Part shown: positions 8,546 through 63,129 of the stretch, in pieces
Position numbering within the stretch: position 1 is the stretch's first letter
Layout of the letters: every line of letters begins with the position of its first letter
Source of the DNA: Nymphaea colorata
Lineage: Eukaryota; Streptophyta; Magnoliopsida; Nymphaeales; Nymphaeaceae
NCBI RefSeq assembly: GCF_008831285.2
Contig: NC_045150.1
Span: 13,933,868-13,997,867 of the forward strand
Length of the DNA: 64,000 nucleotides
Direction: 5' to 3'
Position numbers and translations under genes: made by a program
The notes under the pieces: model-generated
Seen by the model: only the letters and a program-made list of their open reading frames with translations
Told to the model about the DNA's origin: nothing
The model's database searches: none

Positions 8546-8860
8546 TTGTCTGGCCCCACCACGAGTCCTGTGGGTCGTCACTCCCTGCCCGATAGGTTGC
8601 CACCTGTTGCCCCCTTGTTGGATGCTGAGTTGGGCATCTCCCTCCCGGATGCGCTTGATGCTCTTAAGGTCTCTCTTTCACCTGAGCAACTTGAGTTGTT
8701 GCGTTCCTCTTTTGCTGTCGCTGTGGCACCGGTCTCCCGCTCCAGCCTGGCCAGGTTGCGGCAGGAGTTGCGTAGGATTGGGGCTTCTGCAGCCTCCGTC
8801 CTCCCTCCTGGTGCCGCCAGGGTGGCCAGACGTTCGTCGTTTCACGTGGTTTTCCCATGA
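8546..8860 (+). CDS. LINE ORF1, C-terminal part
   Basis: The open frame gives a helical, Leu/Ala-rich segment (ALDALKVSLSPEQLELLRSS, then SSLARLRQELRRIGA) and ends VVFP-stop. The frame stays open upstream to about 8369, so the ATG at 8546 is not necessarily the real start. Its TGA (8858-8860) overlaps the ORF2 ATG (8857-8859) as ATGA, which is what identifies this as ORF1 of the same element and suggests coupled translation. No named domain is visible. Confidence 0.6.
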   Translation: MSGPTTSPVGRHSLPDRLPPVAPLLDAELGISLPDALDALKVSLSPEQLELLRSSFAVAVAPVSRSSLARLRQELRRIGASAASVLPPGAARVARRSSFHVVFP

Positions 8861-11800
8861 GGGTTGCATGTTGGAATGTGCGGGGCCTCAGTGCCCGTTA
8901 TCGGCATAGGTATCTCTCTTCTTGGATCCGTCAACATGGGCCTTCGGTGCTTATTGTGGTTGAGACCAAGATGTCTGTCATCTCTCACGCTTGTGTTCGT
9001 ACTTTGTTGCGCCAACCGTCCTTTGGGTTCCTTCCAGCTTGTGGAGCAGCTGGCGGCATCCTGCTAGCTTGGTCTCCACCCCTTACGGGGGTTGTTGTGC
9101 ATGTCGGAAGGTACTCTATCTCTGCTTCTCTCAGCGGATTCTGGCCTAATGGTCCGGTCTTGGTTACTGCGGTTTATGGCCCTTGCGTTGGGGCTTTGCG
9201 TGGGCAGCTGTGGGCTGAGCTGCATCAGGTTCACCAGCTTGCAGCTTCCCCTTGGTTTCTGGCAGGAGACTTCAACTGTTTGCTTAGCCCTGCTGACTCA
9301 TCCTCCCCTGTCACTTCTGGCCCGTCTATGTCTGCTTTTCGATCATTCGTTGATGAGTTCGGTCTTTTTGACGTGTCTTCGACTAACGGTATGTTTACTT
9401 GGTCTAATAATAGGAACCCTCCGATCCTTCGTAGGTTGGACCATATCTTCCTCTCGCCTGAGTTGTTCTCTGCTTTTCCTTCATCCTCCTTGGTTCTTGG
9501 TCTGAGGCACCTGTGTGATCATGTTCCGCTGCTCATTTCCCTTCTTCGGTGTAGGGCTGGTATCGGGCACGCCAGGTTTCGTTTTGAGATTTGGTGGCTC
9601 CGTGATGAATCCTTTGTAGCTACCGTCCCTAATTGGTGGGCTCGTGCAGTCAATGGTAGGTGGGCTGCTTTCAGGCTCTCGCGGAAGTTGCACTCCATCA
9701 GGAGGGAGGCGCTCGCCTGGAAGCGCATTTTCTGGAGCAGCAAATTTTTGGAAGTGGCCGATTGGGATGAGGAGATCATGTCCCTTCAGGCCTCTGATAA
9801 TATTTCTGCAGATCAGTCTTCCCGTCTCCTTTGTCTGCAGTGTCTTGCCCAGGAGTGGCAGATTAGGGAGTCTATCCATTGGCAGCAACGTTCTAGGCTG
9901 GATTGGCTCGCGCACAGGGACCAGAACTCTAGATTCTTCCACTTGGCCGCCTCTCAGAGGCGCCGTCAGACGTTGCTCCAGTCCATGGGTATCGGGGGCA
10001 GGATTTTTCTTGGTGATGACATCCTCCCGACCTTGAGCGCTCATTTCCAGGATTTCTACTCTAAACCTCTTCGCTTCCGTGCCACGCTGGCGGATTTTCA
10101 CCTCTCCTCTCTCTCTGTCTCTTGTGTGATCGCTCTTGAGTGGCCCTTCCAACACCAAGAGATCAAGAACGCGGTCTGAGCCCTTGGCTCTGGTAAGGCG
10201 CCCGACATTGATGGTTTCCCAGTCGAATTTTTTCGTACTTTTTGGGAGGTTTGTAGCGCGGATGTGTTTGCGTTTTGTGATGAGTTCGCCTCCAATTTTG
10301 TTTTCCTAAAGGAATTCAATCAAGTTACCTGCGTCCTGGTGCCTAAGCGCCCTAACCCTATGGACGTCACCCACTTTCGCCCGATCTCCATCCTAGGCAC
10401 GCCTTACAAGATTATTGCTAAGTTGCTCTCTTTGCAGCTTGCGCCTGTCATGCCTTCAGTCATTAACCCCTTCCAGGTTGCTTTCGTCAAGGGTCGGCGT
10501 CTGCAGGACGTGGTTGTCCTAGCCAATGAGGTTGTTCACTCCCTTTACTGTCTACGGCTACCTTCATTCATCCTGAAGTTGGACATCTCTAAGGCTTTTG
10601 ACTCGGTTAGTTGGGAGTTCCTTTCTGACCTCCTCGCCCGTCTTGCGTTTGGTCCTTCGTTTAGGCAGTGGATCATGTCGCTTGTCACTGGGACCCAGCT
10701 TGCGGTCTCCTTCAATGGGAAGTGTGGTGATTTCTTCTGTCTCGAGCGTGGCCTCCGTCAAGGTTGCCCGTTATCGCCCTTACTTTTCAATTTGGTTGCT
10801 GAGAGCTTTTCTGCGCTTTTCCATCACGCAACGGTCGTTGGCTTCCTCACACCCCATTCGCTCCCCCACTTACCGTCCTTCTCCACCCTTCAGTATGCTG
10901 ATGATTTTTTCCTGTTCGACAGTGCTTCCCGCCAGCAGATTGTGAGAACGTGGCTCATCCTTCGGGTCTTTGAGCTCATCTCAGGTCTTTCTATCAATTC
11001 CACCAAGTGTCACCTCTCCCTCATTCATGCGGATCCGACCACGGTACTTCTCGCGGAAGCTCGCTTTGGGTGTAAGGCTACTAGCCTGCCCATGGACTAT
11101 CTGGGGCTTCAGATTACGTTGTCGCCTCCTGCTCCCTCTTTTTGGGATGGGGTGGAGCATAAGCTTACGGATCGCCTTCAGTGTTGGCAGGGAAAGCTGC
11201 TTTCTCTTCCAGGTCGGATTACTCTGGCTAAGCACTGCCTTGCGTCGGTTCCTCTCCATGCTTTGTCTGTCTTTCGGCCTCCTGTGGCTGTTTTGCGTAG
11301 GTTTGATAAGCTTATTCGTAAGTTTGTTTGGGATGGTGATCGACCTTCAGATCGCCTTGCGCATTAGAATGTAGTTGTCTTTCCGCGTCTTCTTGGGGGT
11401 GCTGGGGTTACCAACCTCAGTCGGGCTTGCGAGTCTTCCATGTGTTCTTGGTGGTGGCAGTTAACAACTGAACATTCTCCCATCACCCAATTCATTAGTT
11501 CAAAATTCAACATGCCTTCCCCTAGCGTCTGGCATAGTTCTATCTCTCACACCTCCCCCTCTCACTTTTGGTCTGACATGCTTTCTGTCCTTCCTCTTTT
11601 CCTATGCCTTGCTGACCTCTCATCGTCCACGTCCCCATCCTGGCCCCTTTCACTACCTGTGAGTTCACTTTTTCTTCTTGCTACCTGGCCCCTTTCACTA
11701 CCCGTGAGTTCACTTTTTCTTCTTGCTACCTGGCCTCCTTTGGTCCTTCTGTCGCGTCACTCCTCCCCCGGTCTCTTTGGTCTCCTGGCCCATCTCCTCG

Positions 11801-16388: not shown

Positions 16389-17555
16389 ATGCCTCCATTT
16401 CCGACTCTCTCCGAGAGGGAGAGGAAGCGGAGATGGTGGACGCAAAAGGGAAGGGCAAGGAGATTGCCGTCCGGCAATAGGAAGTCCTCACGCCCTCCCG
16501 ACGACCAAGCATTTGGCTCTCAAAAACACAGGCAATCCGGGGCGCTGCAATTCTTCGATCACATTGCCAACGATACGAAGATTATGATAGCAATTCTGGT
16601 AAAATCTACTGTTGTTCTTGTCATTTATACATGTAATGGGAGAAACCCTAGTTGCTTTGTGGTTCTAGTTTGATGAACGTGGTGCTGCATTTAGCTTATT
16701 TTCATTTTTGGTGTGTGGGTCTGCTTTTCTCTTTGCGGAACTAATGGGTAATGCTTTTATTGTTATGTCGTTGGTGCTATGAGAGGTTAGAAGCGATAGA
16801 AGCGACTCATTGTTCGTTTCTTTCTGCATGTCCTATTCGTTTTGGATAAGCAGCCGTTTATTTAGCGCCAGGGGGTGGCATTGGAGGTTTCCCGTTCATA
16901 GATACCGAAGTGGGTGACACTTCTACTTGATATACAGATTCTGTTTACGGTTAGGGTTCTAGTTTCATGGTTACTTTTGCTTCAAAGAAAGCTGGAATTC
17001 ACTACAACTGCCGTCTAGTTGGTGGAAACTCTGAAGTGTAGATGGAGGTCCTGCCACGTGTTCCTGTTAGGGCTTTCAAGTAGAAGTGTGCTTTTCTCTG
17101 TACTAGATGGGGAAATGGGAAGAGAGCTTCATTAATTCGTCGCTTAACGTAAGCCAACAACTGGAAATGGTTTCACGCGGTCTGCCATGGTTAATGTGTA
17201 CCTTCTAACCATATGGGATCAATGGGAATGATCAGTTTGCAGAATGGGCTAATCTTCATAAAATGATCAGTTTGATATGGTAGATCCGTAACTTAGCTTC
17301 TTAGCAGGGAAGAGGCTTCATGCAAATGAATAATCTCAGAGGAATGGGAGGCGGTTATGGAACACACAGTTAAGCTCGTTCGCTTTCTTGACCTTTCATT
17401 TTTCAAACAGCATCATTCCTGATTATTCTTTTCTTGCTTTTACTGAGATTTTCTTTTTGAAGCTCTTGTGCTGTTAGATTTTTGAGGACTTCATGCCTGA
17501 AGGCCATGTTGATTTAAAGCAGTTGAAGCAGAACAAAGAGTGGAAACACAGTTAA
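16389..17555 (+). CDS. possible small two-exon gene, unidentified
   Basis: Exon 1 runs from ATG 16389 to 16598 (70 codons) and ends at a canonical donor (ATTCTG|GTAAAAT). It includes a basic N-terminal part and SGALQFFDHIANDTKIMIAI. A second piece, 17478-17555, follows a CTGTTAG acceptor, reads IFEDFMPEGHVDLKQLKQNK and stops with TAA. Both junctions are phase 0, so they splice to a 95-residue protein; extra exons between them are possible. An alternative N-terminus, MVDAKGKGKEIAVRQ (16433), runs into a stop, so a frameshift near 16480 is possible. I do not recognise the family. It could be the 5' end of the MOM1-like locus that follows or a separate gene. Confidence 0.3.
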
Positions 17556-18420
17556 AATACATAAGCTGAACATTTTTTGTGTAAACTGTGCTTGTAAATT
17601 TATCTTAAGATTAATTTAGTGCGAAGGCATTTTAAGTTGGTAATTTTCAACTTTAAATGTGTTTTCTGAGTTATAAAAAACCAATGGCTCTTATAACACC
17701 AGTAAATGATGGTAAAAATTTTTCAATAAAATCAATTTTAACTAAAATATGTTTTCTAATAGATAAGCCATGATAAACACATTCACATATCCAAATTGAA
17801 TTAAAGATAAGTTTAAGTATATAACTTGGGCTGCCTGTTTTTTGTCGCTGATCTAATTTGTTTGAGAGGTACCAATTATATATGTATTTATGTATGTGTG
17901 TGTGTGTTCTAGAATATGATTACACCCTATTAGTGCTAATTATGCACTAACTTGGATATACTTAGAAGGAAATGTCAACTCAATTGGAAATTGCAAACCC
18001 ATAAAAGTGAATAACTAGTCAATTTTTTGCAAAGCTAGTTTTGGTCTGCTTGTTTGTATGCCTCCCTATGATATCAATCAGATGTTGCTTCATAGTCGAG
18101 ATCATAGTCACAAATAACATCTTAGAGTTCTAACGGCGAGTTTTTTCTTGGGTATAATACGGTGGGCTTGAAAAATACTGGAACAAATGGTATTTTTTAA
18201 ATTAAAACAATTAAAAATAGGAAAAAATAAAATAAGTGAGAAATAATGCCACAAACATCAAAAGATAAGTAGATTTGCAACAAATAAAAAATAGAAAATG
18301 AAAAAAAAAACTGTGACATTAAAAAATGAAAAAATGAAAAAAAAGAGTAAAGAATGCGTTTTATTTTCTTGGCATTTTATTTAAAAGACATTTTATTTTC
18401 TCACATTATGATATGAAGTT
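17556..18420. other. no feature seen
   Basis: AT-rich, ending in an A-rich run (18290-18350). No gene evidence. Confidence 0.4.
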
Positions 18421-18842
18421 ATGAACAACAACAAAAAGATCATTGTTCATTCTTGAAAGTTGAAACAAACAATGGAACATATAAACAGATACAGGACACA
18501 ATGAGTTACCAAAAAATATGTTATCCCTATGAGAATCTTGATCTCTACAAGCAAACGCACTCTGGAAAAAATCAATTACTTCATGAGAATTAGACGCCCA
18601 ACCTTTGCAGTGCTTTGACAACACATAGCTCTCTTCACTTACTGATGAATGTGGGTCACCTTTAGCATTTTGAATATCAACTTACAGTCTGCACTTTCAC
18701 TGTCATTCTGAAGACTAATTTCTGTCACTGGGATGGACTTCACTATAATTTTACCACTGCGTAATCTGCAAAAATTTCCATTTTCCTCATCTCCCTTAAC
18801 ATAATTGCCTCCAGGGTCCATGTTCCCGTGACCGACATTTGC
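18421..18842 (-). repeat. left arm of a 422-bp inverted duplication (exon-derived)
   Basis: Reverse complement of 19390-19810, roughly nine bases in ten identical by eye over the full length with nearly equal arm sizes. On the minus strand it reads NYVKGDEENGNFCRLRSGKI and then KSIPVTEISLQNDSESADCK, the same peptide as the right arm. Spacer to the right arm is 547 bp and contains paired GT and CA microsatellites (about 19102-19142 and 19212-19230). Transcription across both arms would give a long hairpin. Confidence 0.9.
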
Positions 18843-19389
18843 AAAGAGAAAATAACGTGTTTTTTGTGACTATGGTCCAAAGTGCTAGTGGCAGCTAGGT
18901 ATGTGCAAAACAGTAAATGATAGGGGAGAAGGACAGGAGGAGGACTAAGGATAAGAAGAAAAACGTAATAAAATTTTAAAATAAAAGTAGAAAAAGGAGG
19001 AAAAAGAACAAACTTTACGGCATTGCCTAGGTGGCCCAGACTAGTTGGAAATGTGGCTACCTAGTGCCCAAGCAGGTGGCACAACACACTTTTGATTGTT
19101 GTGCATGTGTGTGTGTGTGTGTGTGTGAGAGGGAGAGAGAGAGTGCCACCCACCATGCATCCCTTCTTGAGCAAAGGGAACAGACACAGCTCTCTCACTC
19201 CCTATCTCGTGCACACACACACACACATGTGTTTGTCTATGTTATCCGTTTTCCATTGCTATGAGCTTTTAATCACATTTCATTAGAAGATGGGATGTTA
19301 GCTTGTCTCCAATTGCTGGTATAGGTCAATCTTCTCACATGATCAGAGATGGGTGTAATGAAAGTGTTGCTTATGATGAAGTGAAGAGT

Positions 19390-19810
19390 GCAAATGTCGG
19401 TCACGGGAACATGGCCCCTGCAGGCAGTTATGTTAAGGGAGATGAGGAAAATGGAAATTTTTGCAGATTACGCAGTGGTAAAATTATAATGAAGTCCATC
19501 CCAGTGACAGAAAATAGTCTTTAGAATGACAGTGAAAGTGCAGAACTGTAAGCTGGTATTCATAATGCTAAAGGTGACCCACATCCATCAGTAAGTGAAG
19601 AGAGCTATGTGTTGTCAGAACACTGCAAAGGTTGGGCGTCTATTCTCAGGAAGTTATTGATTTCTCCCAGAGTGTGTTTGCTTGTAGAGATCAAGACTCT
19701 CATAGGGATAACATATTTTTTGGTAACTCATTGTGTACAACATATGTTTATAGGTTCCACTATTTGTTTCAACTTTCAAGAATGAACATTGATTTTTTTT
19801 ATGTTGTTCA
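19390..19810 (+). repeat. right arm of the inverted duplication
   Basis: Plus-strand partner of 18421-18842, reading SYVKGDEENGNFCRLRSGKI, then a stop at the end of VTENSL, and VSEESYVLSEHCKGWAS in another register. The right arm runs directly into exon-like sequence of the downstream locus (acceptor CAG at 19809-19811), so this arm is probably the original and the left arm the inverted copy. Confidence 0.85.
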
Positions 19811-19811
19811 G

Positions 19812-20197
19812 ATCATAAGCTTCCACGAATCCATCTTCAAATGGCTCTCCCCTGTGAGAATGATAAAATACCAAGCATAGGCATCATGGAAAGTCCTGAG
19901 AGAAATTCACTTGTTGATGAGGCACAATATGATGGTAAATATCTTGCTATTCACATGGTTTAGCTTTTTTAATCATGATTCAAAGTCTCTCTGATGTCTT
20001 TACAGATGCAGTCCTTTCAAATTCTACTGGTGCGGAAGCTAAAAATTCTGGTGAGAGGTCCCAAATTGTTGCTGCTGATTCACATAGTTCCCAGACGAAT
20101 AAGAACTTATTAGACTCTCATACTTCAAAGGGAGGCTTAGATGCCATGCTGAGTCCTCAGAGGGATTCAACTCAGGCAGATTTGCAGTTATATGATG
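19812..20197 (+). CDS. two symmetric phase-1 exons of the MOM1-like locus
   Basis: Exon 19812-19934 (123 bp) and exon 20006-20197 (192 bp) have AG acceptors and GT donors, and both start and end in phase 1. They carry similar modules: SPERNSLVDEAQYD in the first and SPQRDSTQADLQLYD in the second; NSGERSQIVAADSHSS in the second resembles HSGEKSHIAAAS just downstream (about 20320). This looks like exon tandem duplication in a low-complexity Ser/Asp/Glu-rich linker. Confidence 0.5.
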
Positions 20198-22800
20198 GTA
20201 ATAACTTGCAAGAATCTACTCTAAGACATAGTTGCAAAAGTTGTGATGTCCTTACTGTTAGAGTATTCTCTGATACTATAAGCCTGAAGAAAGACTTCCC
20301 AGAAACTGGGCATTCGGGCGAGAAATCCCACATTGCGGCTGCTAGTCTTGGTACGTGTTTTTCTATTTGGCAACAAGAGAGATAGATGTGAAGAGACATT
20401 GGAGAGCTGTGGCAATGATAACGCTATTTGTGGAATTGAGAGCTCGAAGAAGTCCAGGTATTGGCAGTAGCAATTGCTCGTCAGTTTTTCTTTTTTGAGT
20501 TTTGTCCTTATCCGTTCAATGATTTTTAAAATCTGTGCTTTTAAATCTGAAAATAGAAACCTTGCCGGGAGAAGCTGGAGTCTGTTCCATGTTGGACTAT
20601 GATAAATGACATATTTATGCATGCTTCCGCCATTAAAATTGTTGGATGAGTTGTTAGTTTCAAATATAAAGTGGAACTTGGATTTTTTATGCTTTTACAA
20701 ATGCATGTTTGTACCAAATTGTGAAAATTTTTGAACTTCTCAAAAACTTCAGATTTGTATCTTAGGAAATATATCTAACAATACCTAGTGAAATCATAAA
20801 CAAATATCACATAATATGATAGCCTCCTTTTGAAATGATAGGAGATGGTCCCCATACATAGGAATGAACAAGCTCAAAAGGAACTTCTCTGTCCAAAAGA
20901 TAATAATTTCATTTTTTCATGTATGCAATCATTATATTTAAAGTTCTCAATACAAATATCCTTGGTAGGACTTATCATAGACAATTTTCTAATGTTTGGA
21001 TGACCTAATCTTTGGTGCCAAACATTGATGCCCACATTTTCAACATAGTGACAAAACTTTTCTTTCGGGATACATAAATTGTCCATGTAGTAAAGGTTCC
21101 CTTTTCTAAAACTTTATTCAATCAATCTTCTGGTTTGGTGATCATACACCAAACATTTATTTGATGACAAAACTATGTCAAAACCAAGATATGAGATTTG
21201 TGATACAGAAAGTAAGTTAAGATTAAATCTAGGGACATAACTTTTGAAACAAAAAATTTTTGTTTTCCAAATTTTTTTCAAAATTCCCAATCCCTTTAAC
21301 ACTCAAAGATGTTCCATCAGCGGTAACTACAATTGATTTCTTTTCTTGTTTGTTCAAAATTGGTCAAAGATGATATATTTGATGTCATATGAAAAGATGC
21401 ACCAGAGTTTAAAAGCCGAGAAAACATACCAGGAGTTTTGGAGGTGGATGCCGTTGTTGCTAGTGCTTCGGAATTTGACTTCTTGATCATGGGTTGAAGG
21501 GCCGTCATGATTTGATTCAACGTTGTGAAGATTGATGAAAGATCACATCTTTCATTTGCAACATTTGCAGCCTTTTTTTGATCAAATTGTCTAGTATTGC
21601 ATTATCCACCTTGAGGATATGAAATTCCAGTTGTGTTGCCCTCCTTGAGGATATGAAACTCCTCTTTTGAGAAAATTTCCTCCATAGTTTTATGATTGTC
21701 CTTCATTGTTGTTTAACTTTGGACAACTAGGTCTTATGTGACCCGGTTCATGACAAAAGTGGCAAACAACTTTATATTCTCCTTTATTTTGATGTTCAAA
21801 GTGAGGAGGTCTAAAAGATTTGATGTTGTTTTCGAGTCTAGAGGCGGCTAAGACTTTTTTTTCTTCTTGTTTTGAAATAAGAACACTATCCTTATCCATT
21901 TCTTTGGATAATTTCATTCTAGTTTCTTCTCCACTTAACATTGTAAGGTGTTCATGGATGGGTGGAAGAGAGGCTAAGGAAAGAAGGACTGACCTTATTT
22001 GTACAAATTCAGGTCGTAATCCTTGAAGAAATTGAAAAAGCTTAAATTCATCGACTTCATTTCTTCTAATTTCATGGCACTTGCAATCCATCCCTAGTTT
22101 GGGATTAGGTTGATCTAACTCATTCCACACACTAGAGATTTTCATAAAATATTCTCTCACATTTTTCACTCATTGTTTGATACTTTGGGTTTTTTGAATC
22201 AAAAAATACTTTTGGGCCATATCTTTTTGGGTAAACATTCCCTTGAATATTCCAAAACTTCACTAGCTTTTTTATAATACATAAAATTTTGGGCAATCCT
22301 AGGTTCAATACTTTCTTATATCCATTCTTTAATCCTAGAATTCTTGGCTTCCCAATCGTCCAATTTTTTAGAATATTCATTCATGGCATTTTGTCTTTCA
22401 TCCCCATCTAATTCTTTCTCAATCCCATTTTCTACTTTGGTAACTTAAGAGAAGGAGGGATAGACGTACTTCTTATGAAGCCCCATAAATATTTTTTTTA
22501 TATGCATTTGCAAGCATTTTACCCATAGCGTGTAATTGGTTCCATCAAACTTATATGGAGCATGATAACTTCCTCCTTCGATTGAAACTTTGGAGTCCTC
22601 CATGAGAGCAATATTTTAAATAATAATCTCCAAGAAAGTCAAGAAGAAATCCTTTTGAAAGTTTCACCAAACAGTTGGTGAGCAGCTACAGCAATAGTCT
22701 TCAATAGATGATGATCAGCAACAAAAAAAATTCCTTCAACAGACCAGCAACTCAAAATAATAATAACAGTCTCTAATAAGGCTTCAATAAGCAGCCCAAT

Positions 22801-22813
22801 GACTCTGATACCA
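22801..22813 (-). promoter_or_regulatory. primer-binding site, initiator Met-tRNA type
   Basis: Minus strand TGGTATCAGAGTC directly after the LTR terminal CA; TGGTATCAGAG is the usual plant copia primer site complementary to the 3' end of initiator tRNA-Met. Confidence 0.9.
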
Positions 22814-23188
22814 TGTAAAAGTTGACTATAACAGTTACAAAAGAAGCATATAGCAATAAAAGGCACTAAGGCGAAGTGGAGAAGAATAAATCTCATTCAA
22901 TTGAATACATGAAGGTTGTAAAACACAGCTTACTATTGCAAGAGACTGTTACAAATATTTATACAAGAAAGAATAAGGAGGAAGGGGCTGAACTAGCCAT
23001 TGGGCTGGTTCCAACGACTCTTAATAGAGCCGTTGGAACTGCCAACGGCTAGCTCAGTTAAACAAATAAAAAAATAAAAAATAAAAAATAAGAAATAAAA
23101 ATAAAACAAAAAAGGAAAAATAAACTAAATTCTAAGGTAATACCTATCTAAGAGGTAACAACTAACTTAGAAATCCTATTTCTTAACA
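22814..23188 (-). repeat. 5' LTR of the copia element, 375 bp
   Basis: On the minus strand it begins TGTTAAGAAATAGGATTTC and ends CTTTTACA, i.e. TG...CA borders. The primer-binding site lies directly downstream. No second copy exists in the window, so age cannot be read from LTR divergence. Confidence 0.75.
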
Positions 23189-23979
23189 AAAACACGTTGA
23201 TAGGTTCAAAAGCAGTTAAAAATACATCAATCTTTGGGTCTATAGATGCGCTTGAATCGACCAAGCAGGACAACCAAACAGATGCTGTCATGAGACCAAT
23301 GAAGTCTAATATACTCATGAAGGAAAATCATGTCACTCCAATGGAGTCAGAGCCAAACAGTGTTCGTGGAATGATTGAAACATGGATTTATTCTAGAATT
23401 GAAGATCAGAATGGAACAACAGCTGGTTCATTACAGCAGAAAAGTGGTTCAACTTCTCAAATGTCTGATAGGTTGAGATCAGAGCTTTGACATGAGCAGG
23501 TGAGTTTCGTACTACGTATATGCATATCGAGTCTTTTTTGCATCCTAAATTCTGTAAGTTGTTTTGCTTGTGGTTCTCAATATGCACTATATCATTATTT
23601 ATTTTGAGCCACTTAACATGCATTTCATAGTTAGTCTCACTAGGATGTATAGCTGAATGCTTGTGTGTTAGTTTAAACTATTTAAGCTCCCTGACTTAAC
23701 ATACTTATTCATCTTTAATCAAAGTTGGTAAGTTCTATTATGAAACCTTTTAGGCCTTCTAAGAAATGTCGCTTTGATCTGATCCTGCCTCAGTCCCTTT
23801 GTTGTGCTAGTCAAGCATGTTTAGTATTGGGTCTTGCTTCAAATGCTGATCCTTACTGTTGCTGAATTGCATATTCAGGTGTCTTCTGTGGATCCTGGTG
23901 AAAAGTCTGCACCTCCCGGAACAAAAAGTAATCATGACAATGAAGTTATTGAACGGGATATTCTTCCTCAGGCATGAGT

Positions 23980-24600
23980 TTCAGTACAGCAACCACTTGA
24001 TGCCGCTTCTTCATCAGCTGTACAGGTTCATGTTTCCAGAATGGATCTTGAAAGTCCTACATTTGCGGAAATGGAAGGATATACTGAATTGGGTTCACTT
24101 TCTCAGGATAGAGTTTCACCCCGTCACTGGATGCTTTCCCTTCATCAGCTAGGCAGGTTGGTCAGACATGCTCTGCCAGTTCTGATGAAAGATCTACTTC
24201 TGTAGAGGTAGCGAGGGAATTTGATCATGGAATCACTGGATTGGAGCCTTTTCCAGAGGCTAGTGCTCCAGTACTGCAGCCACTTGATGCTTTGCCTTCA
24301 TCGACTAAGCAAGTTGTTGAGCCATCATCCTGTATGGATTCTAGTCGAGGACTCACATGTGCAGAAACAATGAGAGAACATGATCATGGTCTTGTTTTGG
24401 AGTCTCCTTCTCATGCCAGGGGTCCAGTACAGCAACCACTTGGTACCTTTCATGTATCAGCTGAATAGGTTCAGGTTTCGTCTGCAAATCCTGATGAGAG
24501 GTCCTCATCTGCAGAATCGACAAGAGAAAGTGGGCATGCAGTGGCCATGTTGGATTCTCTTTCCTCATATGAGAGTTTCTCTCCAGCAACCACATGATGT
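23980..24600 (+). repeat. degenerate ~50-residue coding repeats in the MOM1-like locus
   Basis: Three to four related modules of the type xSVQQPLDAxxSS...Q(V) followed by a Glu/Ser-rich stretch: VSVQQPLDAASSSAVQVHVS (about 23990), VLQPLDALPSSTKQVVEP (about 24270), GPVQQPLGTFHVSAE (about 24420) and a partial FSPATT unit (about 24580). Stops interrupt the frame in at least two modules. Confidence 0.6.
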
Positions 24601-25491
24601 TGAGTGTGTTGTTCCTACCGCTCTGTCTTGTTGCCTGCTACACCACTGCTGCCCCCTGTGGCTAGCCAATCCATTGCTTCAGCAAATATAAGGGGAAGAA
24701 CTATAGGTTCAGAGTCTGGTGAGCAAAACTCCAGACTGCTACTCCAATTTTTCATGCCCCTGTCATGAATTGTCTTGACCCGCTCTACCACGAGATAGCC
24801 AGAATGTACAATGAAGAGGAGCAAACCAAGAAGTTCTATGAAGACGTGGTCCGTGACTTAAACCTAAGTTCTTATGTTTCACTCTTTTGGTTTATCTTAT
24901 GTCTTTAGTTTTTCTTTTCAATTAGGAAGTACGTCTTCCTGCAGAACGTGATAAAAAAATTGATGAAGTAAAATAGAAGTGTGCGAAGCTGCTCCAAGAT
25001 GCAGAGTCGAGATACTCACCAACTAAAAGGACACTGGAGGATAACATGATGAAGGTCATGCTTAACCGCTTTCTTGCAGTAGCTTTCAAGTTTCTTGATC
25101 CTAGAGCACAACATATGGTTGTGCAGCCAGGTAATTATGAAGGCCTAATGTTGTGCATGCATCATTTTGTCGTTTACTTTTGCATTTTATAGTCTAATTG
25201 TTTCAGCTTTTTTTTTTTGTGAAAAGCATGCATGAACTTGTATGCCATAATCATAGGCATTTTATGTTCATTTTGCTTCTGTTTATCTTGGTTTGTTTGT
25301 GAACTTTGTCAAATGAGCATACATTTGTTATATGAGCTACATAAGTCATGCATCCTTGTGCTTAAGCAGTTCCAAGCAGTTGGTAACTTGGTTGTGACAC
25401 TTCATGTTACCAACATAATCATCTTAGTTAGCAATTTACATGCTTTGTGGATTTTATTCTTAAAACTCTTAGCAGGTTTCTTTTGCTTCAG

Positions 25492-25704
25492 GAAATATTT
25501 CCACCCTGGCACTGTTCCAGCAATCTGGAATCGGTCCATTTGGTAATGGTAGTGGACCTTCATTGTGGCCCCTCCAAGTGTTGGAGAGTCGGAGACCTCC
25601 AGGTGCCATGCACAAGCCTGAATCTGAAACCTGTAATGCCAGTGCCATTCCAGCCATCGGCTGCAAATCCTGCTGTTCTTGTATATTTGTCTGACATTGA
25701 TTAA
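25492..25704 (+). pseudogene. last exon of MOM1-like gene, frameshifted
   Basis: Acceptor CTTCAG|GAAATATTTCC. The exon starts NISTLALFQQSGIGPFG and ends LVYLSDID-stop, but a one-base loss and a short insertion relative to the 52362-52600 copy put start and end in different frames. About 250 bp of following 3' untranslated sequence (to about 25955) is also shared with the 52-kb copy. Confidence 0.75.
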
Positions 25705-25959
25705 TTTTCCATTGACTAATTTCATGTCCAAATGAAGGCTGACTGTTGGAGATACCTAGCATTCTGGTCTTTGCATGATTGGTCTCGTGCCATTGAAGGA
25801 TTAGTGAGCTCTATTGGGTGGACAGGCTAAAGCACTGAGAGGATGATGGCTATGTATATAGTGTACAATATTCAAATGTAATTTCTTAATGATATATAGT
25901 GCAATTTTGATCCCTGGAGTCGAGGTTGTTGCAGCCACTGCTGTAGAATTTCAGGAATC

Positions 25960-27970
25960 AGCTAATAGAGGACTCGTTCTTTTTCTTACGTTGAGATTTT
26001 GTGGTTTTCGTATGGACACAGATACGAGTTTGTTCTTGTTCCTTTGTGTGCATATCTACCTGGATGGTGGTTCTGTCTAAAGAACCACATTGCGTGATAG
26101 CCAACCCAAGTACCAGGCAACCATGTGACCAGTGAATAAAAATTTTGAAAATTTTTAACGGGGGTCAACCCTTATTTAATTCTAAGCCAAAATTTTGAAA
26201 AAAATTTAATAGCTAAATTTTATATTTGGCCAACCCCCTCCCTATGAGAAGGATCTCTGTTTTCATATATAATTCGATATCTGATCTAGGTTTAGAGTTG
26301 AGGGTTCGAGCTTCAGTATTTCATCTATTTGTCAGACTTGATACAATTAGATCCGGAAAGAAAATTAGCATCCTATTAGTAATCAGGAGCGGGTGTTGTA
26401 TGGAGCTTTTCTAACTCAATACGATACATATCAGACATTTGAGGAGATCCGAATGCAGAAATCTGAATTTGGTTTTTAATAACTTTTATATTAATTGTAT
26501 ACCAATCCATTTCCAAATCAACTTATGCAACATAAAAAAGACAGGATATGGTAATTGCTGTATCGGATTTGAATCCAATCCTTCGACATCCTCGTTCTTC
26601 TCTAAATCTTATGATTTATGCTAGTGTGATATTTTTCAAAGTGTCCGTCTCCTGCTTTTGCATCCGGTATTGCTTCCCTATTTTTTTTTCTTCACATCTA
26701 AAGGTAGCAGTATATGATTTATATACAAGACTGTCAAGCACTCTTGTCGGAGTCGGTTTAAAGCTGTATCGGTGAGGCTCCCAATTCAGTTGAATCTGTT
26801 GGGAATCGGTAAAGAGAATCTAAAAATTAATCTCTCGTAAAAATAAAAAATATTAAAAATAAGAAATTTGTTAAAATATTTAAAAACAAGATGTGAATGA
26901 CAGGCTTAGTTAGAATATTTAAATATTTAAAAAAGGCTGATTTTAATGACATTTTATTGTTAACCTTTTTTTGTCCATCTTTTGTTTTATTCTTTAAAAA
27001 TAATTGCAAGTTTAAAAGGTATCGTTTGTTCAAGGGGTCCGGTCTTTTGACCGTGAAAGAAGCAACTAATTTTAGAACTCCAGGGGTAATATTAAAATAG
27101 AAATATGAAAACCATGTTTTACGAATATGGCTTAAAGATTGGGGTAGATCCGGAAACATTGCTTTCTAGTGTTTTAATAACTTAGATATAATGGGAGAGA
27201 ACATCTACTGTGATGGCAAAATTTGAAAAAAGAAATAAGAAAATCATCTAGTGAGTAGACATTTTTCTTATTACCTTGGTATGAAAGACATTTTGTGCAC
27301 TTCCACAAAAATAATTCTCCTTCTTTAGAAATTTGAATTTGCAAATGGACAATAAACTTGTGGGTAGATATTTTTAACTTAATTGTGCTTTGCCAACACC
27401 TCAATTCTTACCCATCTTGATGCTGACATCAAGAAGATGTGATATTCTAGAACATGTTTCCAATTTAGCGAAAGTTTTGGAATAATTGCTATTTTTCAAA
27501 CCTCATCTCCATTTTTCTAACTTAAGTCTTTATTTGTTGACCAAATGAACATAAAAAAATGAAAATTCACCTCCCATGTCATGAACTTTACTTTCACCAT
27601 CAAACACATTGGAAGTCAATTATATTCCATGAGAAGATGCCAGTTGTCAAGGAATATATGGCAAGGAACGTGGTGAAATACTTTGTTAATAAATGATTTT
27701 CTGTGGAGAAGGCATCTGCAAGAGAATTTGACGTAGGAAGAACATGTTACATTGCATTTTCCAAATTTCACTAAAGAAAATCAAGTGTTAACAAGCATTA
27801 AAATAAGAAAGTGCCAGGAAACCTTCACTTGCACAAAGAAAATAATGCATTACAGAACAGATGATGAGGATGCATGTAACAACCCAGCCAACTCTGGTAT
27901 CGGGCACGGGCTCCTTGTTCGATGGATCTCAACATACTTCATGCTAGATTTAGTTCCAATACAAAAACGG
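25960..27970. other. AT-rich, no gene; pieces of a dispersed ATCC-rich repeat
   Basis: No gene supported. The 26230-26800 part contains words such as GATCCGAATGCAGAAATCTG and GAATCCAATCC reminiscent of the AATCC-rich MITE at 36190, 36765 and 42028, but heavily diverged. Confidence 0.35.
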
Positions 27971-28225
27971 CTAGAAATTAGGATAATCATTATTTAAATA
28001 GTTGTCTCATAAGTCTCTTAAGATTCTTCATAATCTTATATATGAGACTAAACTTTTAAGGTGGTACAATCTACCACCTTAAGGTAATTTAGTTTTAATA
28101 AAAAAAAAAACTAGAAATTAAGATAATTATTTAAATAGCCGTCTCATAAGTCTCTTAAGATTGTTCATAATCTTACTATATCAGACTAAACTTTTAAGGT
28201 GGTACAATCTACCACCTTAGGGTAA
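27971..28225. repeat. 140-bp tandem duplication
   Basis: CTAGAAATTA starts at 27971 and 28111; both units continue through GTCTCATAAGTCTCTTAAGA and GGTGGTACAATCTACCACCT. The last phrase is itself an inverted repeat (AGGTGGTA-CAATC-TACCACCTT), so each unit has its own stem-loop. Confidence 0.9.
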
Positions 28226-29095
28226 ACACATATCCCTACACTAAGCTCGAGCCTCCAATTTGATGGATCTCAACCCAGTTTCTTGAGCACCTTAGGTTCC
28301 AATCCCCAAAAGAATAAGAACCATGACAGGCAATCACTTAAGTAAACCCCCTTTTAAATCACTCGTAATTCTTCACAATCATGCACATAAAACCAAACTT
28401 TCACAATGTTATAGTGCATTTGATTACCCCTCACTGATCTAAGATATCTGAGGTTTGAGGGCCATGGATTTAATCTCTAAAATATCCTCTGGTAAAGTAC
28501 GGGCCAAATGGAATTACGAAAAAATCACATTCCTTTGTCATGTCATCTACTCGAGGACCCAAAGGGGAATTTTTTTTTTAGGCTAAACATTACTAAAAAA
28601 TTATAACTAATAGCAACAGTAAAAAAAATTATATAGCAAGAGTCCAAGAATTCAAAAAAAAAAAAAATTTCTTTTTCTTCTTCAAGTTCAAAAGTTCATT
28701 GTTGGAGGTCCATTGATGCTATCTCCGGTGGTGGACCTGGACCTAGCTAAAGTTTAAGTTTCTCATATTCGATGTGGCCATCTATCAGTGGTCGTACCGC
28801 AAGATACTAAAACCATATATAATGACAAAGGTAAGGAAGGTGTGGAAAGTGAAGGGAACTACCAAATCTATCATGGGCGATAATATGCAAGCTTAGTTAA
28901 AGGTGACCATAGTGAAATATCTAGATCCACAATCAAAAGCAATACAATCAAAAGGAATATATGCTTTTTATTTATGACATGATTATCTACTACTTGAAAT
29001 TTGTCTTAAATTGAAGCCCTCGCCCGTCCTTTTACTCTTAGGTATAGGGTTGCTTTTCAGACCTCGGTGCACTCATGATACGCTTATCAACTAAA
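28226..29095. other. no feature seen
   Basis: AT-rich with A and T homopolymers (28570, 28655); no gene evidence. Confidence 0.4.
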
Positions 29096-29104
29096 GTGTT
29101 GCAG

Positions 29105-29285
29105 TAGGGGCGGAGGGAGTGGGGGGGCCGCCCGGGTGAGCCCAGAAAAAAAAAAAATTTATATGTAAAAAATCAAATTTTTTTAGTTTGGCCCGACCCG
29201 TCGCTCCTCTTGGCCTTACCGTCGCTCCTGGCATGACCCACGGATGGTTTGGCCCGTCCCTAAAAAAAATCCTAGCTCCGCTCCT
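29105..29285. mobile_element. hAT-type MITE with target-site duplication
   Basis: A 181-bp insert starting TAGGGGCGGAGG and ending CTAGCTCCGCTCCT (imperfect terminal inverted repeat AGG(G/A)GCGGAG), flanked by the direct repeat GTGTTGCAG at 29096-29104 and 29286-29294. An 8-bp-class duplication and this terminus are typical of hAT MITEs. Related ends are used by the GGGGTGGAGCC family elsewhere in the window. Confidence 0.8.
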
Positions 29286-29311
29286 GTGTTGCAGTATCAC
29301 CGTTTGTAGTA

Positions 29312-29500
29312 GAAGTGGGCATTGGGCCGGTAGGGGCTTGGTACCCGGCTCGTAACAGGCCTCAGTCTGGGCCTGAAAAATTGGGCCCGACCCGGCCCGT
29401 TAATATTAAAAAAACTATTTTTTATTATATTTAAAATTTCATTATATATTTTTATTATTTAAAATACAATTTATATTCAAAAAAAATTATTCCACCATCC
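29312..29500. repeat. GGGCATCGGGCC-type repeat, left part
   Basis: GC-rich end (GTGGGCATTGGGCCGG ... GGGCCCGACCCGGCCCG) running into an AT-rich middle (TTATTTAAAATACAATTTATA) shared with 50700-50770. The right GC-rich end is missing here. Confidence 0.6.
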
Positions 29501-30290
29501 TCTCACTATAATCAAAGTTTGACAAAGCTTGCTTTGTAACCCATTATGATAAAAAGAAAAATATTGAGATGTGGCAAACGACCACATCAAGATTTAAACC
29601 CAAATTCCTTATAAGGTGGACCGTGTTACTGCTGAATGTGTTACACCTCCTCAAAGTTAGAATTTTCAAAAAGAAATGTATTAATGAAATTTTATATATT
29701 TAGAATTTTTCTTTTTTGAAATGACTGCACTTACTGTTGACAGTGAAAAACTAATGCCCATGCCCTTTCCCACTAAGAAGGCCAAGTGTGATGTGAACAT
29801 TGTGAAGTGCTTTTCCATGCAAGGCTAGTATACGTTGATGGTGGACCCTCTGTAGGACACGTGCTGCTTCCAATCACGTAGAGCTGCACTGCACTTTACA
29901 CATAAGTGGGTCTGTTGCCACGCACCAAGTTGTCGGCATCGGCACCCAAACCGTATCGCAACACGGTGAATCGGAGCTCTCACGAACCGGTTTTGCTTTT
30001 TATTATGTTATATAAAAGGCATAACTTAGCTTAACTTATTTGAGTCTATCTTTTCCTTTTTACATATGTCTCAGACATTTTTCACAAATTAACTGACTCC
30101 ATAGATCAAATTCTATAAGATAATCATAATAAACATGTCACAAAATTGGCCGGCTTGGACTGCCGTATAGGTTAGCAAAACCGATACACATCGATACTAA
30201 CGCTTATAGGACTGGTGACGTTTTGCAACTTCTATTGCTTACTCTCCTAGGAAAGGTAAGAAAAACATTACTCACCACCTGTTTCTCTAT
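29501..30290. other. no gene; upstream region of a WAT1 exon
   Basis: AT-rich. About 30065-30155 (CTCAGACATTTTTCACAAAT, TAATCATAATAAACATGTCA) is repeated at 62345-62425, so part of this upstream region was also duplicated to the right end of the window. Confidence 0.4.
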
Positions 30291-30294
30291 GATC

Positions 30295-30304
30295 TATAAA
30301 TATA
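30295..30304 (+). promoter_or_regulatory. possible TATA box
   Basis: TATAAATATA about 160 bp before the ATG at 30464 of the WAT1-related first exon, a reasonable distance for a core promoter plus leader. Not tested by any other signal. Confidence 0.35.
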
Positions 30305-30463
30305 ACCCCGTATGACATATCTTTCATCTCATTTCAGTGCTGATTTTGAGATTGGCAGCTTCAGCCTGTTTGCATCTTCTTTTCTATGCAATATCGTTGG
30401 TGAAAAGAAGCAGAAGCAAAAGGACTAATTCAAGGAAAGAGAGAGAGTTGTCAAATATATATT

Positions 30464-30722
30464 ATGGAGGAGAAATACGCGAGTGATCAGCAGCCTGAAG
30501 AGAGCAAATCAAATAATAATGAAAATTATTATAGTTGAGAAGGAGAAGGGTGGGATGGACGAAGGTGGTGCTGTGCATGGTGGTGGCCCAAGCGGCGGTA
30601 CCGGGGATAACCATCCTCTACAAGATCTCCGCAGACCGAGGGATGAGCCTCCAAGTCCTCATCGCCTACCGCTACATTTTCGGGGCCACCCTCCTCTGCC
30701 CTCTTGCCTTTTTATTGGAGAG
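30464..30722 (+). pseudogene. WAT1-related (nodulin MtN21/EamA) transporter, exon 1, copy A
   Basis: WAT1-related proteins are ten-helix EamA-type membrane transporters. The frame 30541-30722 reads VVLCMVVAQAAVPGITILYK, SADRGMSLQVLIAYRYIF and CPLAFLLER, i.e. the first two membrane helices and the family signature, ending at the conserved LLER|GT splice (GAGAG|GTATGC). The nearest plausible start, ATG 30464 (MEEKYASDQQPEESKSNNN), is in another frame and runs into a TGA, so an indel separates the N-terminus from the body. It has no adjacent exon 2; the next one on the plus strand is at 34810. Confidence 0.85.
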
Positions 30723-30819
30723 GTATGCGTATGAATTAACCCGATCACCATTTAAAACATATTACTTTAATGTATTTTTTTGACTAGCTTATAGATATGA
30801 TCTAATTAACTCTTAAGAA

Positions 30820-30985
30820 TATAGGCCGAATTAAAGTTTTTAAATTTTAACAGGAGCCGAAATACCATTTTTCAAAATTTTTATGTTGGACAAGTAAAGT
30901 TTTCTAAATTTTACATGTAAATTTAGATTTTTTTTTTAAGGTAGGGCTAGGGCCCATGCGGCCCCGCTTAGCTCCACCCCTAGAT
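30820..30985. repeat. GGGGTGGAGCC MITE family, copy in WAT1 intron 1
   Basis: Contains ATTTTTCAAAATTTTTATGT, TTTACATGTAAATTTAGA and closes GGGCCCATGCGGCCCC...TTAGCTCCACCCCTAG. Related copies at 51198, 52857, 53790, 55770, 56098 and 58237. Confidence 0.7.
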
Positions 30986-31237
30986 CCACCTTCAGTTATA
31001 AATATTCTTGAGGTGAATCTAAACTCTTTTTTTTTAATGTTCACTTGGGAGAAACCATTTTTTTTTCTTAAAAACTTCATGGTTAAACCTTCCTGCCTCC
31101 AAGGTTTTGGAGAGGTATGCTTGAAGAAGAGCATACCTCACGTCAATGTGAAGTTCTCTCGTGGACTTAGGCAAACAAGATGCAAAAATCTTGGTAGATT
31201 TAGAGAGGGAGATCAGTAGTGACGGTGGTGGCCATTA

Positions 31238-31360
31238 ATGGAGGTAAGTGGAAGGGATAGGAGGGAGGGGATGAAGGCAGTGCTGTGCATGGTGGTGGTG
31301 CATGTAATAGTTGCAGGAATGAACATCCTTTACAAGCTTTCCGTAGATGACAATTATTTT
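31238..31360 (+). pseudogene. second WAT1-related exon 1, 3'-truncated
   Basis: ATG 31238 opens MEVSGRDRREGMKAVLCMVV, then HVIVAGMNILYKLSVDDNYF. This start is cleaner than that of the 30.5-kb exon. Homology to exon 1 breaks after YKLSVDD (about 31345), before GMS-VLIAYRYIF and the donor. The break sequence CTTTCCG(T/C)AGATGACAATT recurs at about 32035. Confidence 0.75.
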
Positions 31361-31855
31361 TCGTGTAAAAGAATCGGAGCCTATTTCTTGTTCTTTTCCA
31401 ATTTGTTATTATGAATATGAGGACCGGAGAAAAGAGGAAGTCTATTATTAAATTCTCCAATGTCAATGTGAAGTTTCTCATTTACTTTTACCAAGAAAGG
31501 CAAGAATAGAACGTGAAAAACCAGGTGAAGGAATTGGATGTGAATGTAGAGAAGTTATTACTGTCCAATTAGAATTTCTGCTTAATGCGGAGAGTGAATT
31601 TATTCTTTAGATTCCACATATGCCTATATATATATATAAGTACATATATGAACACCTACCACATGTACTCGCCATTTGACCCATTTTATCTTTTTGTATT
31701 TATTTAAATATAGATTAAATCCGACAAGAAGGAATGAATTTGACCCAACTAAAAGCAAAACATATTCACAATGTAACCGGGCAGACTTAGTCTAATTTGT
31801 GACCCAGATGTCTTCGTTAGGTTGTAGGAACACTTAAGAATAAAGTTTATATAAA
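31340..31855 (+). repeat. WAT1-locus sequences duplicated elsewhere
   Basis: 31340-31620 matches 38017-38280 closely (GAGAAAAGAGGAAGTCTATT; CCAAGAAAGGCAAGAATA). 31670-31855 matches 60150-60340 (AACCGGGC(A/G)GACTTAG). These are non-coding segments that travelled with the WAT1 exons. Confidence 0.85.
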
Positions 31856-32199
31856 AACAATACTGACAACACTGTGCCCTAAGAATGTAGTTCCCAACGG
31901 TTCATTTGATCATATAATAACAAACATATTTAAACGAGCTTAAATATTCCTGAGGTGAACCTAAACTTTTTTTTTTTTTAATGTTCACTTAGGAGAAACG
32001 ATCTTTTTTTCTTAAAACCTTCCTGTCTACAAGCTTTCCGCAGATGACAATTTTCATTTGATCCAATTCAAGGGTCCAGGCGACAAGAAGATAGGTTTAA
32101 TCATGTATCATATAAAACAACCAAAACAAATGTAGGATTTGGACACGCTGCTTCAAGATCGGTGTTGGTAGAGGCATTAGCGACCATTGTTGTAGCAGT

Positions 32200-34300
32200 T
32201 TCCCTACAAGATTGTATTTGTGCTCATGTGATAACCTCCGCAGCATAGCGATGTTGGTTGAAAAACAGACCGAAGGTATTGTGTTGAACTTGAATGCCTA
32301 AAAAATAATGTAATTCTCCAAGATCGTTCATAGCAAAGGTATGCAATGATCTTGGAAGGAGGCAAGAAAAAATGAACAGCTGCCAGTAAAAATAATATCA
32401 TCCACATATAATAAAAGTATAGTAACTGTTGAATCTTGGAGGCGAACAAACAGCGAGGGATCAGTGGAGCTAGCTTGAAAATTGTGAGAAAATAAAAACT
32501 AGGCAAAACGATCATACCAAGCTCTTGGGAACTGTTTAAGGCCATATAGTGCCCAATTTAACTTGCAAAAATGATGAGGAAAGTGTGTATCTTTGAATCC
32601 AGGAGGCTACTCAATAAAAATAGTTTCAGTCAAATAACCATTTAAGAATGCATTCTTAACATCCAGTTGTTTAAGAGGCCAGCTATTCATGAGAGCAATG
32701 GAAAGAATGATCTGAATAGTTGCTGGTTTAAGAACTGGAGAGAAAGTTTCAAGAAAATCCACGCCTTCAACTTGTGTATAGCCATGTGCGACCAACCGCG
32801 CTTTAAGTCTGTCAACCTGACTAGCACTGTTCAATTTTGTTTTGTAAATCTATCGGCAGCCAATAATGTGCATGGAGGGGCTCTAGGAACCAAAGTCCAT
32901 GTCTTATTAGCGATCAAAGCTGCCATTTCGTCTGTCATAGCTTTTCTCTAACCAGGGTACTTTAGAGCAATAGTATAATGTTTTGGTTTGGTGGGAACAT
33001 AGGTAGTTAAGAGATATTTGGTATTGGGTTTAACAATACCATGTTGAGAATGTGTAGCCATAGGATGAGAACTTCTAGTAGAAGGATCATGTAAAGGAGG
33101 AGGTGGTATTGGAGAAGGCGAGAGAGGGAATGGTGAAGACGAGGGAGGAGATGGTGAGGTTGGGGTAGGTGGGTCTGATGGGAAGGGGGTTAAAGGCATG
33201 ATGGCTAATGATTGGGGATAAGAATTGGTCGGATGTGGTTCAAGTTCACTGTTATGAAGTCGAGCAAGATCATGAGGGTTCACGACAGAAGAAGCTGATG
33301 TTTTAGTTTGAGTATCGGTAGAAGAAAATGACACAAGATCATGAGCAAGGCGATAATCTAGTGATGCTCTAGTAGACCCTTGATTGAAAGGAAAGCAATG
33401 TTCATCAAACACAACGTGTCTTGAAATATAAACATGATTTGTCAGGGGATAGAGGCAACAATATCCTTTGTTGTAACTCTTAATGTAGGAAAAACACCTA
33501 TACCCGAAGGTCCGTAGACACGAATAATCTGGTGGTTTTAGAAATAAGCTTTCATATGTGCATTACATTTGCAGCGTGGACATCGGTAGCCGATTTATGA
33601 GCCACACAGCCATTGAAAAAGTCTCTACCCAATAATTTGCGGGTAAGATACTGTGAAAAAGGAGAGTTAATCCAAGTCAGTGATTGACCTGTGTTTCCGC
33701 TCCACCAACCCATTCTGTTTGAGTGTTTTAGACAAGCCTTCACATGTTGATTCCATGTTCTCTTGAATAAGAGAAATGCAGCACTATTAAATTCTCCACC
33801 CTCATCACTTCAAAATTTTTTTACAGATCTTCCGAATTGCATTGCCACGATTTTATGAAATTCCATAAACTTTGTATTAAAATCAGACTTTGTTTTTAAT
33901 TGATAGATCCAGGAATATCTAGAATGTTGATAAACAAAAAGAGCATAATATCGAAATTGTAGACAAGAATCAAGAGGTGCTGGTCCACAAAGATCACAAT
34001 GTACTTTCTCAAAAGGTTCATAATATTCATCATCTAGGGGAAGAAATGGCAAATGCGTTGCTTTTTTCAATTGACAACTTTGACAAATTGAAAAAGTAGA
34101 CGTTTTTGTCATTAATTTTATGCTACCCTTGGACGACAAAAACTCAATGATCTTAGCAGACGGATGCCCAAAGTCGACTAAGCCAAACTTCTGAAGTTGC
34201 TGCCCTGAAACGATCAGAAAAAAATACTGGCTTTGGTCTAGTCTTGAGAGCATTCAAATCTTCTTCTCTAGTTCCTTTGGCAATCACCGGCTGGTTTCTT
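32200..34300 (-). mobile_element. Ty1/copia pol remnant, no LTRs
   Basis: Minus strand, right to left: pre-integrase/integrase (FGHPSAKIIEFLSSKGSI, CQSCQLKKATHLPF, VHCDLCGPAP, LKTKSDFNTKFMEFHKIV; 34253-33810), integrase C-terminal part with frameshifts (33743-33552), the KGYCCLYPLTNHVYISRHVV segment (about 33470-33410), a Pro/Ser-rich linker (33400-33000), RT ([30 protein letters not shown]; 32834-32607) and the RT catalytic YVDD (32408-32397). gag, protease, RNase H and both LTRs are absent. Its right end abuts a truncated MITE (34327), so it probably entered WAT1 intron 1 near that MITE before deletion. Confidence 0.9.
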
Positions 34301-52216: not shown

Positions 52217-52361
52217 CTTTTGATCTGTTTTCTTTACTCTAAATATGTGGTCAGGTTTATGCATTCTATTTCCGTGTTTGTTCATATCTAAAATTAAAAA
52301 AATTAAACTGAAGGTGCGCAATAAATGATTAAAATGGCAAGCTCTTATTCTTTTGCTGTAG

Positions 52362-52600
52362 GAAATATTTCCACCCTAGCACCGTTCCAGCAATCTGGAA
52401 ATGGTCCATATGGTTCTGCAGCTTATCACACACACCCAATATTAAATAGCCGTAGTGGACCTTCCTTTGTGCCCCTTCCAAGTGTTGGAGAACTCCAGAT
52501 GCCATGCACAAGCCTGAATCTGAGACCTGTAATGCCGGTGCCATCCTATCCATCGGCTGCAAATCCTGCTGCTCTTGTATACTTGTCTGACGATGATTAA
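52362..52600 (+). pseudogene. duplicated last exon of the MOM1-like gene, open
   Basis: Follows an acceptor (TTGCTGTAG|G). The frame is open through NISTLAPFQQSGNGPYGSAA, PILNSRSGPSFVPLPSVGEL, MPCTSLNLRPVMPVPSYPSA and ends ALVYLSDDD-TAA. It has 14 residues (YHTHPILNSR region) missing from the 25.5-kb copy and none of its frameshifts. Homology includes the intron acceptor and about 250 bp of 3' flank, so it was copied as DNA, not from mRNA. No other exon of the gene is nearby, so it cannot encode the protein by itself. Confidence 0.75.
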
Positions 52601-63112: not shown

Positions 63113-63129
63113 AAATGTCTCCTCTCTCT

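Follow-up and report, generated by a model that had tools for sequence, protein, structure and literature searches.

A long inverted repeat in a MOM1-like pseudogene of Nymphaea colorata, probably formed by a MITE-borne gene fragment

The stretch of DNA analyzed here (the window) comprises 64,000 nucleotides from Nymphaea colorata. It contains an inverted repeat with a left arm at 18422-18843 (minus strand) and a right arm at 19389-19810 (plus strand). The arms are identical at 391 of 421 aligned bases (92.9%) in a gapped alignment with two 1-nt gaps, and the spacer between them is 545 nt long. An earlier sequence-only reading had described this inverted duplication, and its estimates (about 90% identity, arms 547 bp apart) were close. 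In a repeat search, the arms appear as three collinear ungapped blocks that are 89-96% complementary. Among the best 25 of 33 window pairs, one such block (169 nt) is the longest inverted pair with arms less than 2 kb apart; the two longer pairs (170 and 179 nt) have arms more than 20 kb apart. Besides each other, the arms match nothing in the window (BLAST, E<=1e-3). Both encode the peptide GDEENGNFCRLRSGKI, which is the shared coding stretch that had been noticed before. The RNA fold, a check proposed in the same reading, has a predicted energy of -828.3 kcal/mol, whereas 12 dinucleotide shuffles fold at -361.4 +/- 7.0 kcal/mol (SD; lowest value -378.5). Along the stem, 92 windows of 21 bp are perfectly paired, and the longest perfect run is 61 bp. 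By arm alignment, fold and shuffles alike, the locus has the foldback with near-perfect arms that characterizes MIR and hairpin-siRNA loci.

A fuller locus homologous to the gene in which the arms lie was found on C7 (C7:4319446-4364849). Three domains exceed the curated Pfam cut-off (PF25029 MOM1-like, 1.4e-14; Chromo, 4.9e-8; Helicase_C, 2e-6), and three more fall below it (PHD, 1.7e-4; a second Chromo, 1.4e-4; SNF2, 0.0094). The first ORF (338 aa) has no Pfam match. The CMM2 piece matches 3VEM, the CMM2 of MOM1 (E=4.4e-5). The C7 gene has the conserved MOM1 motifs and the SNF2-type helicase that mark this family, as well as the PHD and chromodomains found in some homologs, although its SNF2 and PHD matches are weak. 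An origin of the arm peptide from an unrelated family can be rejected, because the C7 gene carries MOM1-like domains, and the proposed membership of the arms in a MOM1-like gene is supported by this homolog. The exon peptides of the window align to C7 without any stop in the latter. In its second CMM2 piece, one TAG was counted, at the first codon, which is read as an intron end. The 12 C7 ORFs are free of stops, but they were picked as open frames. We take the C7 locus for a MOM1-like gene that is apparently intact, such as the earlier reading had suggested seeking elsewhere in the genome.

The window copy itself (17549-26112, plus strand) is a paralog of C7:4320832-4364849, with 83-95% identity in the main blocks (blastn). 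It retains exon 2 to exon 4 and a C-terminal part including CMM2. An internal deletion, seen as a jump in the window from 22901 to 23189 that corresponds to C7 4336661 to 4361828, removes the PHD/chromo/helicase part. The C7 pieces for exon 1, PHD, chromo, SNF2a, SNF2b and Helicase_C have no match in the window (tblastn, 12 C7 ORFs, E<=1e-6). Homology to C7 starts at 17549 (blastn, query from 12001). As this start lies where it does and exon 1 of the parent is absent, control by the native promoter is argued against. Upstream of the pseudogene, at 16434-17556 (plus strand), there are exon-like stretches with a possible start and possible splice sites (by eye); they have no Pfam match and a single PDB match with E=0.3. 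These stretches could be a source of read-through transcription.

Exon 2 of the window copy is predicted at 19287-19630 (plus strand) and has two in-frame stops, a TAG at 19522 and a TAA at 19549. Its donor was set at 19631, because this position is in phase with exon 3. The alternative donor at 19549 was dropped, since that GT is absent from C7 and 19631 suits the phase of exon 3; neither donor is proved. The CMM2-like segment (24768-25130, plus strand) consists of two exon pieces with an in-frame stop. Its best PDB match is again 3VEM (E=1.4e-4), and Pfam gave no convincing match for its peptide. Pfam searches with the arm peptide and the other gene pieces of the window gave no useful match. 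A degenerate last exon with 3' flank (25478-25940, plus strand) is 82% identical to 52348-52836, and its frame is broken. With stops in several matched stretches, the reading frame is not intact. Judged by its stops and deletions, the window copy is a decayed MOM1-like paralog that lacks exon 1 and the PHD/chromo/helicase part. We infer that the C7 gene is its parent rather than a sister copy. Truncated MOM1 homologs have been described, namely MOM2 of Arabidopsis and PtMOM2/3 of poplar (PMC2507757). These, too, are MOM1-like copies without other parts of the gene, and MOM2 retains the C-terminal CMM2; the window copy, as compared to what is described there, differs in having in-frame stops and a MITE-borne inverted repeat.

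Some related features were also noted. A further MOM1-like last exon is found at 52348-52840 of the window (plus strand), with an open frame ending in VYLSDDD; no CMM2 match lies near it within the window. It has 19 places in the genome, for example with 99% identity to C7:5052716 and 96% identity to C7:5152125. The idea that this copy was captured by a CACTA element was dropped, as only one exact end was found. A divergent CMM2-like remnant with stops (56-60% identity) lies at C9:7820026-7820230. A Copia-type fragment with a weak zinc knuckle (21690-22169, minus strand) is located in an intron of the pseudogene and is common to C7.

The right arm is collinear with C7 (C7:4321484-4322950, blastn) and represents the pseudogene's own copy of this region, with 242 bp of predicted exon 2 and 180 bp of intron 2. 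The left arm has a different setting. Relative to C7, which reads ...TTCATAGTCCAAAGTGC..., the window has 780 extra bases at 18098-18877. When 18000-18097 is joined to 18878-18990, the resulting sequence aligns to C7 without a gap at the junction (two 3-base gaps occur elsewhere). As judged from this alignment, C7 holds the empty site, and 18098-18877 is an insertion. It has the ends of a MITE, a hAT-like element at 18103-18874 (plus strand), with 772 bp made up of 350 bp of MITE and 422 bp of gene sequence. The terminal inverted repeats, CATAGTCACAAATAACA and CATAGTCACAAAAAACA, are alike at 16 of 17 positions. None of 60 shuffles reached the score of this pair. The score was reached in 18 of 1000 random placements in the window, of which 8 were over the same pair, 3 were over the arms and 7 started at 4.3-4.5 kb. 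This control also revealed another inverted pair, approximately at 4.3-5.0 kb and 5.2-5.7 kb. If up to 3 mismatches are allowed, the terminal motif occurs just twice in the window, both times in the MITE pair; by chance, a mean of 0.81 matches is expected, and at least two were obtained in 21 of 100 window shuffles, so that the motif alone is not rare. The right target-site duplication (18875-18882) is GTCCAAAG, which is the same as in the C7 empty site, where it is present once. The left one (18095-18102, GTCGAGAT) is degenerate and matches it at 5 of 8 positions by eye. This poor duplication is a point against the MITE model.

The element belongs to a family. A genome search with 18098-18421 yielded 2164 candidates, with 40 scored matches in addition to the query itself; such match counts are lower bounds. 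Thirty-nine of the scored matches begin at query base 1-19, most at 4-7, and hence at or near the terminal inverted repeat, and one piece begins at 102. Of 20 copies that were retrieved, 16 have a recognizable right end and are 337-486 bp long, the right end of the longest (486 bp) being doubtful; in the other 4, none was recognized. Without the arm, the window MITE has 350 bp, which is within this range. Target duplications of 8 bp, matching at 7 or more of 8 positions, were found in 4 of 16 true pairs of flanks but in 1 of 240 mismatched pairs. Two copies (L041 and L046) share their flanks and are not independent, and neither is among the four with duplications. The family thus has many dispersed copies and 8-bp target duplications, and duplications of 8 nt are described as a feature of hAT elements (PMC8903248). 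Based on the empty site, the terminal inverted repeats, the repeated family and its 8-bp duplications, the left arm is assigned as a gene fragment inside a hAT-like MITE. It corresponds, in inverted orientation, to the 3' part of exon 2 together with intron 2 of the MOM1-like pseudogene. The spacer of the foldback (18844-19388) consists of the last 31 bp of the MITE, the target duplication, what remains of intron 1 and the first part of exon 2 (alignment to C7). A host gene fragment that lies between terminal inverted repeats and is missing at the empty site is typical of Pack-TYPE elements. Like the Pack-TYPE and Pack-hAT elements described in PMC8903248 and PMC13317346, this is a nonautonomous element with terminal inverted repeats, 8-bp duplications in its family and a host gene fragment inside. 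Unlike those, as they are described there, a single loaded copy was found here, and its fragment is inverted beside the pseudogene's own copy, which results in a foldback.

These observations bear on how the repeat arose. The sequence-only reading had followed the model in which such loci arise by inverted duplication of their target gene. The locus is not, however, a simple inverted duplicate of a working gene. A duplication without a transposable element is rejected on the C7 empty site, and a hAT-like MITE of 772 bp in intron 1 of a decayed paralog harbors the left arm. A variant, in which the inverted duplication arose by break repair and the MITE is incidental, is the least probable of the explanations considered. 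At the junction between MITE and arm, there are bases that are absent from the other family copies (by eye), and these odd bases point to a repair event more than to a clean transposition. MITE ends are, however, found on the insertion as a whole (780 bp), and C7 lacks both the MITE and the arm at the empty site.

In the explanation that we consider probable, a MITE made the foldback in a decayed MOM1-like copy, most simply by capturing the fragment in place, and any effect is mainly in cis. A MOM1-like chromatin-silencing gene on C7 would have been copied to C13, where the copy decayed. A hAT-like MITE of roughly 350 bp would have inserted into intron 1 of the decaying copy. The 422-bp inverted fragment, with the 3' part of exon 2 and intron 2, would then have been placed 31 bp from the right end of the MITE, most simply in a templated repair process that used sequence about 0.5 kb away. 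The 421-bp near-perfect inverted repeat is now composed of this MITE-borne fragment and the pseudogene's own copy.

It may also be that the fragment was captured elsewhere, from a related copy, and that the loaded MITE then transposed beside its source; we regard this Pack-hAT insertion as a possible but clearly less likely course of events. Pack-hAT elements are reported from plants (PMC8903248), and the insertion can be removed cleanly in comparison to C7, as expected for a single event. Four places that match the arm were found in the 407.8-Mb assembly, namely the two arms, C7:4321992-4322406 and C13:11471915-11472279. Among these, only the left arm is MITE-borne, so that no other loaded MITE was found; as genome search counts are lower bounds, another one could be missed. 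Unless the element moved locally, its arrival at 0.5 kb from the source copy would be a coincidence. Two stop codons are instructive in this context. The TAG at 19522 is common to the right arm and the second C13 copy, but is absent from the left arm and from C7, which suits a capture elsewhere. The TAA at 19549, in contrast, is found in both arms, while the second C13 copy has AAA and C7 has GAA. This shared TAA is consistent with the local pseudogene as the template, or with a later conversion event involving the two arms. The present sequences do not separate capture in place from capture elsewhere followed by transposition; in-place capture, which appears to be the simpler course, is retained in our preferred explanation.

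The two arms are more similar to each other (differences at 30 of 421 positions) than to C7 (38 of 415 for the left arm, 36 of 415 for the right arm); the right arm differs from the second C13 copy at 7 of 365 positions. In a four-sequence comparison, all 7 informative sites group the right arm with the second C13 copy. Taken together, the pairwise differences and the informative sites suggest that the split from C7 came first, followed by the MITE fragment and then by the duplication within C13; the internal branch of this tree is short. With assumed rates of 7e-9 to 1.5e-9, the JC distance of 0.075 between the arms would correspond to an age of 5 to 25 million years. Divergence between the arms is not clearly different in exon and intron (13 of 242 versus 19 of 181 columns, P=0.06); an earlier split that used the other donor gave 7 of 161 versus 25 of 262 (P=0.058). 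In the predicted exon, 11 ungapped codons are different in the two arms, and each of these differences changes the residue (one further codon is gapped). Hence, there is no sign of protein constraint in the arms.

The second C13 copy has the opposite orientation and is 97.5% identical to window 19446-20707. It ends inside exon 2 and is thus silent on whether the insertion was ever there. It is part of a large segmental duplication in inverted orientation within C13 (window 19446-34113 versus C13:11457233-11472279), the blocks of which, with gaps, have identities of about 92-98% in the part from 26.0 to 34.1 kb of the window. For the second C13 pseudogene, the last exon also forms an inverted pair (C13:11466659-11467117, minus strand, and C13:11473021-11473479, plus strand), the two copies being about 6 kb apart.

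A foldback of this kind may give rise to small RNAs. According to the inverted-duplication model attributed to Allen et al. 2004, MIR genes are reportedly born from inverted copies of their targets. The usual MIR hairpin is far shorter than the 421-bp stem found here. As in the pseudogene- and TE-related variants of MIR birth treated in PMC3237417, there are close inverted gene segments with about 93% identity and exact 21-mers shared with the parent; the stem of 421 bp and the location of the MITE-borne fragment in a pseudogene set the locus apart from what is outlined there. Inverted pseudogene pairs in rice are reported to yield hairpin siRNAs (PMC2708354); they are alike in having paired inverted segments, a stem of more than 100 bp and a loop of less than 2 kb. 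Long endogenous inverted repeats such as IR71 of Arabidopsis are described as being diced by DCL2/3/4 (PMC12825306). The rice pairs have mapped small RNAs, and IR71, a long foldback of about 3 kb, is transcribed and diced, whereas the present locus is described from its sequence. Given read-through transcription, DCL2/DCL3/DCL4 might dice the foldback into siRNAs, which would mainly aid silencing of the pseudogene in cis. This cis silencing is proposed by analogy to the known inverted-repeat loci.

A second possible effect in cis concerns RNA processing. The foldback might mask the 5' splice site of intron 2 and block splicing or export. The donor predicted at 19631 falls within the right arm, and the stability of the hairpin is very high, but the pseudogene already has stops and this donor is a prediction; we consider such an effect unlikely.

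The original proposal was bolder. A young hairpin-siRNA or proto-MIR gene would yield 21/22-nt products that cut or silence the intact MOM1-like gene, resulting in a silencing feedback. Part of this stands, as a long hairpin is possible and exact 21-mers are shared with the C7 gene, but the hairpin has a MITE-borne origin. The stem with its perfect 21-bp windows would suit such a gene, and 65 left-arm 21-mers are exactly present in the predicted C7 exon 2 (48 if the shorter of the two predicted versions of this exon is used). There are precedents: miR820 of rice, which is of CACTA transposon origin, is reported to target DRM2 (PMC4211545), and a PHAS locus in strawberry is described as being overlapped by a gene annotated as MOM1 (PMC9454143). 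In miR820, as here, a transposon-borne sequence matches a silencing gene; miR820 is, however, an expressed miRNA with a tested target (PMC4211545), which goes beyond the sequence data that we have for the window locus. The foldback lies, moreover, in a pseudogene without exon 1 and the upstream region of its parent, about 180 of the 422 bp of an arm (43%) are predicted intron, and the coding part of the arms shows no trace of selection. Splicing would probably also remove the left arm together with intron 1. We consider it quite unlikely that the locus is such a gene. Feedback on MOM1 in trans is possible but unsupported, and it is even less likely that siRNAs from the foldback reduce the level of the C7 MOM1-like mRNA or direct methylation of the gene. 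If it were true, MITE-made siRNAs from a decayed copy of a silencing gene would weaken the silencing that restrains such elements.

Most likely, there is no important effect on the C7 gene, and the locus is a relic made by a transposable element that acts at most in cis; silencing of the pseudogene in cis ranks next. The locus is instructive as to how hairpin-siRNA or proto-MIR loci could originate. With the empty site preserved elsewhere in this genome, it shows within a small region how a long foldback results when a MITE carries a gene fragment next to the gene itself.

Further mobile elements are found in the window. A LINE-type element at 8776-11367 (plus strand) has matches to an endonuclease (2.5e-17) and a reverse transcriptase (2.3e-34), and part of a second LINE-type copy lies at the window end (63115-63786, plus strand). 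A search for LTRs of a Copia fragment gave nothing useful. The Copia-type fragment at 32948-34253 (minus strand) carries gag_pre-integrs and retroviral SH3-like domains.
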